A stretch of 38,937 nucleotides of DNA from positions 1-38,937 of the forward strand of contig JAISVT010000033.1 in NCBI GenBank assembly GCA_031271405.1, read 5' to 3'. The position numbers were made by a program, and so were the translations under genes. The DNA comes from Candidatus Endomicrobium macrotermitis (GTDB lineage: Bacteria > Elusimicrobiota > Endomicrobiia > Endomicrobiales > Endomicrobiaceae). Shown here piece by piece: positions 10,485 through 38,696 of this stretch; the stretch's first letter is position 1, and the number at the start of each line of letters is the position of its first letter. The notes beneath the pieces were generated by a model that was given only the letters and a program-made list of their open reading frames with translations, was not told the DNA's origin and did no database searches.

Positions 10485-10572
10485 GAAGTTCAGAAGATTG
10501 GAAGTTTAGAAGCGAGTCTTGCGGCAGCAGAGCTTCTCTAAACTTTTAAGCTTCCAAGTTCTCTAAACTTCC
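10485..10572 (+). repeat. Palindromic element, family A
   Basis: The element begins at the first base after the rplO stop codon. The left arm is GAAGTTCA, GAAGATTG, GAAGTTTA, GAAGC. The right arm includes GCTTCTCTAAACTTT, AAGCTTCC, AAGTTCTC and TAAACTTCC. AAGTTTAGAAGC pairs with GCTTCTCTAAACTT with a two-base bulge. It ends about 25 bases before secY. Confidence 0.83.
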
Positions 10573-14984: not shown

Positions 14985-15070
14985 CAAAGTGAAAAGTTAA
15001 GAGTGAAAAGTGAAGATAAAAGCAAACTGAAGCCGTATTTTAACTCTCCGCTCTTCAATCTTCACTTTTA
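14985..15070 (+). repeat. Palindromic element, family B
   Basis: The left arm consists of heptamers AGTGAAA, AGTTAAG, AGTGAAA, AGTGAAG. The right arm has TTAACTC, TCCGCTC, TTCAATC, TTCACTT. The outer units AAAGTGAA and TTCACTTT are complementary. It occupies the first half of the 184-base gap between rpsK and rpsD. The second half holds no recognised feature. Confidence 0.82.
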
Positions 15071-17162: not shown

Positions 17163-17248
17163 GGAAGTTAGGAAGATAAGATGATAGGAAGATAAGCAAA
17201 AACAAAGGCATTGCCTAACTTCTTACCTTCTTAACCTCTTATCATCTG
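17163..17248 (+). repeat. Palindromic element, family C
   Basis: The left arm is GGAAGTTA, GGAAGATA, AGATGATA, GGAAGATA. The right arm is TAACTTCT, TACCTTCT, TAACCTCT, TATCATCT. This is the same octamer theme as at 34684-34771 and on the flanks of the IVP pseudogene at 37591-37866. It fills the gap between rplQ and mreB. Confidence 0.83.
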
Positions 17249-34139: not shown

Positions 34140-34150
34140 AAGACCGGATG

Positions 34151-34209
34151 CTTGGAAGTTTAGAAGTTTGGCAAAAGTCCTTAAACTTCTAAGCTCTCCG
34201 AACTTCAAG
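34151..34209 (+). repeat. Palindromic element, family A, at the 5-prime side of cvpA
   Basis: CTTG, GAAGTTTA, GAAGTTTG, GCA are followed by AAACTTCT, AAGCTCTC, CGAACTTC, AAG. The core GGAAGTTTAGAAGTTTGG pairs with CCTTAAACTTCTAAGCTCTC and the following CGAACTTC imperfectly. The element ends seven bases before the cvpA ATG, so its right arm overlaps the ribosome-binding region (CAAGG). Confidence 0.85.
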
Positions 34210-34215
34210 GCATTT

Positions 34216-34710
34216 ATGGCCATATTGATAGACATATTTTTAATCGCAAGCATTTTTATAATCGGGTACCTCGGCTGGTCGGCGGGGCTTACCAGAAGTT
34301 TTTTTGCCGTTTTTGCCGGGTTTTTGTCGATATTTGCCGCAAGCAAGTACCCGTATCAGGAAGGCATAAATTTCTGGCTGATTTTTGTAATTACCGTTTT
34401 GGCGGTCATGCTTGTGAGCGGATTTGTTTTAAGGCTTGTAAATTTTTTCTATATGAATATAGCCGATAAAACCGGCGGCGCGGTGTTAAGCGCGCTTGTC
34501 TGGATTGTCGTTGCCGTTAACGTTTTAGTGCCTACGCTTACGCACGGCACGCACGCGCTGGACGGCTCGGCGCGCAATACTGTATATAAAACCATTTCAA
34601 ATAAGATGCATAAACACATTTCGATATTTAAAGATTATGTGCCCCCGGCGCTCGAACGCAAAGCGCTGGAAAGGCAGCGTGAGGCAGAAGATAAGAAGAT
34701 AGGAGGATAA
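34216..34710 (+). CDS. CvpA family membrane protein
   Basis: CvpA-type proteins are small inner-membrane proteins with a link to envelope stress and colicin V export; the mechanism is unclear. The product (164 residues from MAILIDIFLIASIFIIGYLG) has four hydrophobic segments, the WSAGLTRSFFAVFAGFLSIF region and LVSGFVLRLVNFFY, matching the family. The frame is open to a TTG at 34168, but that part is palindromic element. The C-terminal EAEDKKIGG and stop are encoded by the next element (34684-34771), so both ends of the gene abut elements. Confidence 0.85.
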   Translation: MAILIDIFLIASIFIIGYLGWSAGLTRSFFAVFAGFLSIFAASKYPYQEGINFWLIFVITVLAVMLVSGFVLRLVNFFYMNIADKTGGAVLSALVWIVVAVNVLVPTLTHGTHALDGSARNTVYKTISNKMHKHISIFKDYVPPALERKALERQREAEDKKIGG

Positions 34711-34771
34711 GAAGATAAGAGAAGCCAAAAGCCCTGATTATCTTCTTCGCCTATTACCCTCTTATCATCTT
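34684..34771 (+). repeat. Palindromic element, family C, encoding the cvpA end
   Basis: The left arm is AGAAGATA, AGAAGATA, GGAGGATA, AGAAGATA. The right arm is TATCTTCT, TCGCCTAT, TACCCTCT, TATCATCT. The first three left units are read in frame as EDKKIGG-stop, the tail of CvpA. The element ends about 12 bases before the hisG Shine-Dalgarno AAAGGAGA. Confidence 0.85.
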
Positions 34772-35672: not shown

Positions 35673-35677
35673 TTAAA

Positions 35678-35772
35678 AAAGTGAAAAGTGAAGAGTGGAG
35701 ATATTGAATTTCGGCGAAGCCGAAAACGAAAACACGTTATCTTCACTCTTCGCTCCCGGCTCTTCACTTTTT
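35678..35772 (+). repeat. Palindromic element, family B
   Basis: The left arm is AAAAGTGAAAAGTGAAGAGT followed by GGAGATATTG. The right arm is TTATCTTCACTCTTCGCTCC followed by CGGCTCTTCACTTTTT. The outer AAAAGTGAA and TTCACTTTT are perfect complements, and an inner hairpin TTTCGGC-GAA-GCCGAAA forms the loop. It fills the gap from hisG to about ten bases before gltX. Confidence 0.87.
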
Positions 35773-37293: not shown

Positions 37294-37614
37294 ATGTCAG
37301 AAGAAAAATTAGATTTTAACCCTTATTTTTTTAACCTCGTAACAATGTTTGCTTCCGCGGCTTGGCAGCAGTTGGGGAAAATACAAAGCCAGGTTGACGG
37401 CAAAGTGCACAGGGATTTGCAAAGCGCGCAGATAACCATAGATATGCTTTTGATGATACGCGATAAAATGAAAGGAAATTTGAATAAAAAAGAAGAAGAG
37501 CTTCTTGCCTCCACCATTTCAAACCTGCAGTTAAACTATGCCGACGAAGCGGCGAAACCCGAAGAAAAGCAGAGTGAAGAGTTGAAAACGGCGGAAGATA
37601 AGAAGATAGGCTGA
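37294..37614 (+). CDS. DUF1844 family protein
   Basis: A small 106-residue protein of the DUF1844 family, function unknown. Characteristic are FNPYFFNLVTMFASAAWQQL (hydrophobic helix), LQSAQITIDMLLMIRDKMKG and NLNKKEEELLASTISNLQLN. The last residues, SEELKTAEDKKIG, correspond to family C palindrome sequence (AGAAGATAGGC TGA), so the stop codon is provided by the element that follows. Its tail EDKKIG is the same as that of CvpA. CGGAGGAAAA precedes the ATG. Confidence 0.9.
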   Translation: MSEEKLDFNPYFFNLVTMFASAAWQQLGKIQSQVDGKVHRDLQSAQITIDMLLMIRDKMKGNLNKKEEELLASTISNLQLNYADEAAKPEEKQSEELKTAEDKKIG

Positions 37615-37866
37615 TAGGAAAGTCGGTAAATGTATAAAAAATTAGAGATATGGAATGAAGCATTATCTTTGATAAAAGAAGTTTATAAAATAGCCGGCGG
37701 ATTTCCCAAATCGGAAGAATTTAATCTTAAGTTGCAGGTCAAGCGCGCTAAGGATAGAAGTTTTATCAAAAAGAATAAATGCTTTAAGGAAGAATTTGTT
37801 GCAATAAGAGGGCTGTGTCTTTTAAGAAGTTTCTTGCCCTCTTATCGTCTTATCTTCCTATGCTTC
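37591..37866 (+). mobile_element. Long family C element carrying an IVP-type gene remnant
   Basis: The left arm (37593-37622) is GGAAGATA, AGAAGATA, GGCTGATA, GGAAAG. The right arm (37837-37866) is CCCTCTTATCGTCTTATCTT followed by CCTATGCTTC. The two are complementary over most of their length. Between them lies a degraded coding region of the S23/IVP four-helix-bundle family. The arms match those of the short family C elements at 17163 and 34684, which lack any gene. I infer that the short copies are deletion forms of this layout. Confidence 0.7.
37630..37807 (+). pseudogene. Four-helix-bundle protein (23S rRNA intervening-sequence protein family), decayed
   Basis: The first 40 residues, MYKKLEIWNEALSLIKEVYK with IAGGFPKSEEFNLKLQVKRA, match the conserved start of S23/IVP proteins (WxxAxxLxxxIYxxTxxFPxxExFxLxxQxRRA). 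The hallmark SIPSNIAEG that should follow is missing. Immediately after, in the next frame (37751-37807), the DNA reads RIEVLSKRINALRKNLLQ-stop, which looks like the C-terminal helix of the same family. So the middle (about 60 residues) is deleted, with a frame change. In the original frame the reading runs on to 37944 through the right arm and into the next gene. Confidence 0.78.
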
Positions 37867-37882
37867 AACAAAGGAGTATTAA

Positions 37883-38416
37883 ATGAAAATTTTAACCGTT
37901 ATCGGCAGTATTTCCAAAAACTCCATAAACAAAAACCTTTTTGAACTCATCAAACCGCTTGCTCCATCCGATTTTGAATTTTCGACGTTCGATATTTCAC
38001 AAATTCCTTATTTTTCGCAGGATTCGGAAGTCAATCCGCCCGAAGCGGTAGTAAATTTCAGAAAACAAATAGCCGGAAGCGACGCTGTTTTGTTTATTAC
38101 TCCCGAATATAACCGTTTTATTCCGGGAGTTTTGAAAAATGCCATAGACTGGGCTTCAAGGCCTTACGGCAAGGGCGCTTGGGTAGGCAAACCCGCGGCA
38201 GTGCTCGGCGCAAGCCCGGGGCCTATAGGCGCGTTCGGAGCGCAAATGCAGTTGAAGGAACTGCTCTCGTTTTTAAATATGAAAGTAATGTGGCAGCCGG
38301 AAATATGTTTTAATTATTCAGCATACGTCAAAGACGGCGTTTTAGAAGAATCTTCAGGGAAGTATTTTGCGAAGTATTTTAATTCGTTCAAAGAACACAT
38401 TGAAAAGAATAAGTAA
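37883..38416 (+). CDS. NADPH-dependent FMN reductase family protein
   Basis: A flavodoxin-fold oxidoreductase of 177 residues. It shows the N-terminal phosphate-binding loop VIGSISKNSINKNLFE, the hallmark LFITPEYNRFIPGVLKNAID and WASRPYGKGAWVGKPAAVLG with ASPGPIGAFGAQMQLKELL. Such enzymes reduce FMN, quinones or azo dyes; the real substrate cannot be told. AAAGGAGTATTAA precedes the ATG, lying just after the right arm of the IVP element. A promoter for the tRNA begins inside its last codons. Confidence 0.94.
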   Translation: MKILTVIGSISKNSINKNLFELIKPLAPSDFEFSTFDISQIPYFSQDSEVNPPEAVVNFRKQIAGSDAVLFITPEYNRFIPGVLKNAIDWASRPYGKGAWVGKPAAVLGASPGPIGAFGAQMQLKELLSFLNMKVMWQPEICFNYSAYVKDGVLEESSGKYFAKYFNSFKEHIEKNK

Positions 38417-38615: not shown

Positions 38616-38696
38616 GGTTTTGTAAAATAGACTGTGTAAAGCTCCTTTGCCTTTTATTTTATCAAAGGAACTTTACACAGTCTATTTTACAAAACC
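38616..38696. mobile_element. Near-perfect 34-bp inverted repeat, MITE-like, resembling IS256-type ends
   Basis: The left arm (38616-38649, GGTTTTGTAAAATAGACTGT... to CTCCTTTG) and the right arm (38663-38696) are complementary at 33 of 34 positions, with a 13-base spacer. The AGACTGTGTAAAG core resembles terminal repeats of IS256-family elements. There is no transposase, so this is either a tiny non-autonomous element or two abutting IS ends. It could act as a terminator for the tRNA transcript, but no clear T tract follows. Confidence 0.7.

Follow-up and report, generated by a model that had tools for sequence, protein, structure and literature searches.

The palindromic feature at positions 37593-37858 of the window, i.e., the whole 38,937-nt contig analysed here, is probably what remains, after decay, of an "IVP hairpin element", in which an IVP protein (S23/IVP family, PF05635) acting with its own repeat array would promote the copying of the hairpin into intergenic sites with the help of host enzymes. 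More generally, IVP genes and their cognate inverted arrays are best read as a family of hairpin elements devoid of a recognisable transposase, which looks like a widespread kind of bacterial element. This reading is built on the layout of the elements, its generality, the link between repeat unit length and protein lineage, the tendency of gene-less arms to match IVP arms from their own genome, the paucity of arrays in genomes lacking IVP, the turnover of occupied sites and purifying selection on IVP.

The IVP gene remnant and its arms

A profile search matched PF05635 (23S_rRNA_IVP) to the ORF 37630-37944 at profile positions 1-38 only (E 1.5e-7), with a score a little below the curated cut-off, while the intact IVP copy of the genome scores above it. 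The remnant is enclosed by two arms of 38 nts each on the + strand (37593-37630 and 37821-37858), which are 190 nts apart and 71% complementary. Both consist of the 8-nt repeat GAAGATAA, the 3′ arm being an inverted copy of the octamer array of the 5′ arm (GGAAGATAAGAAGATAGG...). When the arm core GGAAGATAAGAAGATA was compared with GGAAGATAAGACGATA, the score was equalled or exceeded in only 1 of 2000 dinucleotide shuffles. Between the arms, the N-terminal part of the gene (MYKKLEIWNEALSLIKEVYKIAGGFPKSEEFNLKLQVKRA...) is read on the + strand from 37630 to 37755, and a second frame located ahead of the 3′ arm (37760-37807, + strand) encodes VLSKRINALRKNLLQ followed by a stop at 37807, corresponding to the C-terminus of intact relatives. 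Because this C-terminus is found in another frame before the 3′ arm, the gene has been internally deleted and frameshifted, so that about 41 N-terminal codons and the frameshifted C-terminus are retained and the middle is missing. The preliminary description had recognised an IVP gene remnant between arms, which stands, but more than the N-terminus is preserved. Its structure places the remnant half-way on the path from a hairpin with a gene to one without.

Family searches identified a DUF1844 gene upstream of the remnant and an NADPH-dependent FMN reductase gene downstream, and the feature is thus not in a 23S rRNA gene, the defining location of 23S rRNA intervening sequences. The 5′ arm overlaps the 3′ end of the DUF1844 gene and lengthens its coding frame.

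Gene-less palindromes in the window

The proposal that the arms around the IVP gene share their type with the short gene-less palindromes was borne out, since palindromes of the GAAGATAA octamer family without a gene occur at 34686-34770 and 17175-17243. The former is absent from the same site in the sister genome G001, and its 5′ arm (34686-34720) provides the upstream gene with its C-terminus (...EAEDKKIGG) and stop codon. Allowing at most one mismatch, AAGATAAGAAGATA is matched 15 times in the genome, whereas the same pattern reversed, used as a control, is matched 5 times. A gene-less copy of the GAAGTTTR octamer family, the arm type of the intact IVP gene of this genome, is located at 34146-34206 and is also absent from the G001 site, and a probable gene-less copy of the GAAGTTTA octamer family lies at 10493-10557. 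In addition, three gene-less palindromes are made of heptamers (AGTGAAA): 14986-15070, where the corresponding site of G001 is occupied by an octamer palindrome, 35676-35772, and 590-697, which is absent from the G001 site. No Rfam family was found at the window palindromes.

Two other kinds of repeat were encountered. At 38616-38696 of the window, 3′ of a tRNA gene, a non-periodic 34-bp inverted repeat with 97% complementarity and a 13-nt loop represents a different kind of element. In the related genome G002 (L079, around 960-1100), other dispersed palindromes of the GTCATTGCGAGG... and GTCATTCCCGAG... types form a separate repeat class.

Intact IVP genes in the genome and its relatives

Besides the remnant, the genome holds a single PF05635 gene (L001), which is intact, maps to another locus within a 2-oxoacid:ferredoxin oxidoreductase operon (named from sequence, not by family search) and is enclosed by octamer arms of a second local family. 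These arms are of the GAAGYTYG type and are too divergent for the automatic flank test. No intact IVP gene of this genome lies outside arms, in agreement with the preliminary description. It had also proposed the window copy as the parent of the short elements, which did not hold: the copy is broken, hence not an active parent, and no intact IVP gene with GAAGATAA arms was found.

In the genus and the family, nearly all IVP genes are located between inverted periodic arms, the sequences of which differ. The few exceptions are two intact genes without arms (L037 and L044) and an intact gene of G003 (L024, 1180-1500, reverse strand), which adjoins a heptamer palindrome instead of lying inside it; that palindrome comes after the apparent 3′ end of a tmRNA gene. 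In full elements the IVP gene is the sole ORF. In G001, the IVP element and both gene-less GATGCAT hairpins start, just inside the 5′ arm, with approximately GG[TC]AAA[GA]ACAA. The IVP gene is under purifying selection, with a median dN/dS of 0.165 across IVP pairs. In 99 of 103 co-directional contexts it has the same orientation as both neighbours, which is what expression from host read-through would predict.

Generality of the inverted arms

A scan of named genomes for the type-2 subfamily, defined by the RSGTSIGAN motif, yielded 80 loci from many phyla. Flanking inverted repeats exceeded the 95% null at 62 of these loci, and 39 of the 43 loci above the 99% null had their best self-match at a lag of 7 or 14. 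The arms of IVP loci are tandem arrays of 7- or 8-nt units, and the median arm has 5.0 units. With Elusimicrobiota added, 158 of 194 IVP loci were above the 95% level of a mismatched-flank null and 112 above the 99% level. In a direct control on the genome-collection loci, 59 of 80 IVP genes passed the flank test, but of 230 ORFs adjoining them on these contigs only 4 did; arms of period 7 or 8 were found for 50 IVP genes and one neighbouring ORF.

The same layout was found at all 17 plasmid loci examined, in several cyanobacterial genera, Treponema, Bernardetia, Monoglobus, Riemerella and Gemmatirosa. The baits for the two plasmid searches were hand-completed approximations of L142 and L190 and served for finding matches only; the matches are real records, most of which carry the annotation "four helix bundle" or "S23 protein".

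Repeat unit length and protein lineage

The preliminary description suggested testing whether arm family tracks protein subfamily, and across the 194 loci the unit length does follow the IVP lineage. The tree, built from 113 IVPs whose arms are periodic, comprised 88 heptamer, 20 octamer, 3 nonamer and 2 decamer cases. The unit-length label changed 14 times on this tree against 23.7 times after shuffling, and none of 200 shuffles was as low; because this tree is short and poorly resolved in places, the result concerns clustering only and not deep branching. All 66 members of the type-2 clade spanning more than 10 phyla are associated with heptamers, and all 5 members of the MYKNLEIW clade, which includes the IVP of the window, with octamers. 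The type-2 units have a common core, A[AG]T[TG]NNN, with an information of 4.53 compared to 3.54±0.08 for the null.

Two solved homologues, 2gsc and 2rld, have five chains each; 2gsc is XCC0516 from Xanthomonas campestris (PMC4990558). A pentamer of this kind would bind one unit per subunit.

Gene-less arrays and the presence of IVP

Gene-less hairpins of period 7 or 8 numbered 28 in 642 kb of genomes carrying IVP and 2 in 487 kb of genomes without it, and they were present in 9 of 11 and 1 of 10 genomes, respectively (Fisher p 0.002). The array of the single IVP-free exception (G067) matches the IVP arm (L032) of its genus-mate G071. Tandem arrays detected with TRF were about five times denser in IVP-carrying genomes for both periods (129 versus 25 per Mb for period 7/14 and 47 versus 8 per Mb for period 8/16), whereas other periods were equal (137 versus 140 per Mb); the contrast between genomes with and without IVP follows in part phylogeny and genome type, several of the genomes without IVP being those of reduced symbionts. 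The best match of 15 of the 28 gene-less hairpins was an IVP arm of the same genome, for an expectation of 1.0, and about half had their best-matching arm in a relative. In 78 kb sampled from G003, which has four IVPs, no clear gene-less periodic hairpin was found.

Turnover of sites

The window is syntenic with contig 9 of G001 at about 82% identity. At about a dozen orthologous intergenic sites, classified by eye, the species of the window and G001 differ in hairpin family or one of the two is empty. Matches to the GATGCAT octamer number 85 in G001, 10 in G000, 1 in G002 and 0 in G003, and between Planktothrix strains one arm varies by whole 7-nt units. These three comparisons document change and expansion, none of them having captured an insertion itself. 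Neither a target-site duplication nor a clean empty site was seen at the orthologous sites, the nearest relatives being only about 82% identical, and a search for empty sites in near-identical plasmids of Planktothrix and Monoglobus returned element-bearing copies only. A joint replacement of both arms at the syntenic DUF1844-FMN reductase site (L018 compared to the window) was not retained as a claim, since each IVP may have inserted there separately. The mobile hairpin with spreading derivatives envisaged in the preliminary description fits this turnover, the copy families and the distribution among genomes, from which we infer that IVP elements are mobile.

Proposed mechanism and alternatives

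In the proposed mechanism, the element would consist of a small gene, coding for an IVP that folds as a four-helix bundle and forms pentamers, and of two inverted arrays on either side of it, in each of which a 7- or 8-nt unit is repeated about 4 to 6 times. The protein most likely recognises the array of its own element, because unit length and, in one clade, the core motif go with the protein lineage. Together with host replication or repair enzymes, it would allow hairpins bounded by such arms to be copied into intergenic sites. Loss of the internal part, a process caught half-way in the window copy, would then generate gene-less hairpins depending on IVP supplied in trans. We know of no catalytic activity of IVP.

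The suggestion that the protein acts on the arms as RNA found no support. Arm mismatches show no excess of G-U over A-C (142 versus 118, p=0.15), so that RNA-level selection on the arms was rejected, as was the insertion of RNA copies, the loops of gene-less copies being oriented 13 versus 6, which is not significant and relies on a noisy orientation motif. Reverse transcriptase (PF00078) is absent from all four genomes of the genus, and Y1 transposase is absent from G002 and G003, both of which carry IVP elements, with one each in G000 and G001. Taken together, the lack of G-U excess, of significant orientation bias and of reverse transcriptase, and the absence of Y1 transposase from two genomes make copying at the DNA level, assisted by IVP and enzymes of the host, more likely than a route through RNA.

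These data also bear on who moves the hairpins. A Y1/RAYT transposase or a reverse transcriptase acting in trans, with IVP as an accessory, would agree with the single Y1 transposase of G000 and of G001 and with the resemblance of IVP to Avd, the accessory protein of diversity-generating retroelements, but neither enzyme can be the general mover given their distribution in the genus, and this scenario is improbable. It is unlikely, if somewhat less so, that IVP is a TRAP-like RNA-binding pentamer autoregulating through the units in its own mRNA, the gene-less hairpins being dispersed operators or mRNA-stability elements and not transposition intermediates. The roughly five units per arm, the five-chain homologues, the position within operons and the co-directionality of the gene (99 of 103) would be expected of such a regulator; it leaves unexplained the spread of copies and their turnover between sister species, and would sit poorly with arm mismatches lacking a G-U excess and gene-less copies lacking a significant orientation bias. 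Finally, IVP genes could preferentially insert into existing hairpins or heptamer microsatellites born by slippage, the protein having no causal role in the arrays. Slippage by whole units does occur between Planktothrix strains, but this very improbable option conflicts with the association of protein lineage and unit length, with the depletion of arrays of period 7 and 8, and of no other period, in genomes without IVP, and with the finding that gene-less arms match IVP arms from their own genome.

Comparison with known systems

The intervening sequences of 23S rRNA, e.g., in Coxiella, similarly contain a PF05635-family ORF flanked by terminal inverted repeats, which pair into a stem, and older proposals that this ORF helps mobility are on record (PMC4990558). 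The elements described here differ in lying between protein genes, in having arms made of 7- or 8-nt tandem arrays and in having gene-less relatives dispersed throughout the genome. None of 40 IVP loci tested was in rRNA, and the 23S pieces recovered from the genome of the window carry no insert.

In many prokaryotes, heptamers are the most abundant tandem DNA repeats between genes, and the study reporting this had no clear clue as to what the periodicity does (PMC6344855); in Xanthomonas, 70-75 heptamers (GGGAATC) occur as convergent inverted pairs (PMC4692102). Intergenic heptamers and the cyanobacterial STRR resemble the arms in being tandem 7-nt units that are intergenic and form genome-specific families, the window copy itself being an octamer, but they are not tied to IVP genes in those reports. 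No link between IVP and heptamer arrays was found in open-access text, and an earlier description may exist elsewhere.

In REP/RAYT systems (REPINs), gene-bearing and gene-less palindromes have common ends and non-autonomous copies are dispersed. IVP elements share both properties but encode a PF05635 protein instead of a Y1 transposase, and their arms are arrays of tandem units, not a single conserved palindrome. They also differ from MITEs and other IS derivatives, as full-length IVP elements have no transposase and the IVP as their sole ORF. The Avd protein of diversity-generating retroelements is a four-helix-bundle pentamer related to IVP; in contrast to these retroelements, the genomes of the genus lack reverse transcriptase (PF00078), and no template/variable repeat pair was identified.

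On balance, we lean slightly towards the broader view that IVPs define a bacterium-wide class of transposase-less mobile hairpins reading a tandem unit of fixed length, from which the so far unexplained heptamer and octamer repeats of bacterial intergenic regions would chiefly derive and of which the 23S rRNA intervening sequences would be a special case. Such a class would join three questions, namely the role of IVP/S23 proteins, the origin of 23S rRNA intervening sequences and the dominance of heptamers among intergenic tandem repeats, and it predicts, concretely, that the protein recognises a period of 7 or 8 nts.

Other genomic contexts

In plasmids of Picosynechococcus (L319) and Pseudanabaena (L320), IVP elements lie within CRISPR operons, between cas10/cmr2 and a Cmr3-family gene and between cas6 and cas4, respectively. 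Such insertions may explain why the 23S rRNA IVP domain was listed among CRISPR-linked genes (PMC10910872). Other defence operons are also occupied, with elements between drmD and pglX in Planktothrix (L312) and between hsdS and hsdR in Monoglobus (L313). Where IVP genes occur in operons for CRISPR, DISARM or restriction, they may have hitchhiked there and not be components of these systems. Elsewhere, IVP elements were observed between tRNA genes (L184 and L188), and in two Elusimicrobiota genomes a group I intron (RF00028) adjoins the IVP gene (L222 and L223).
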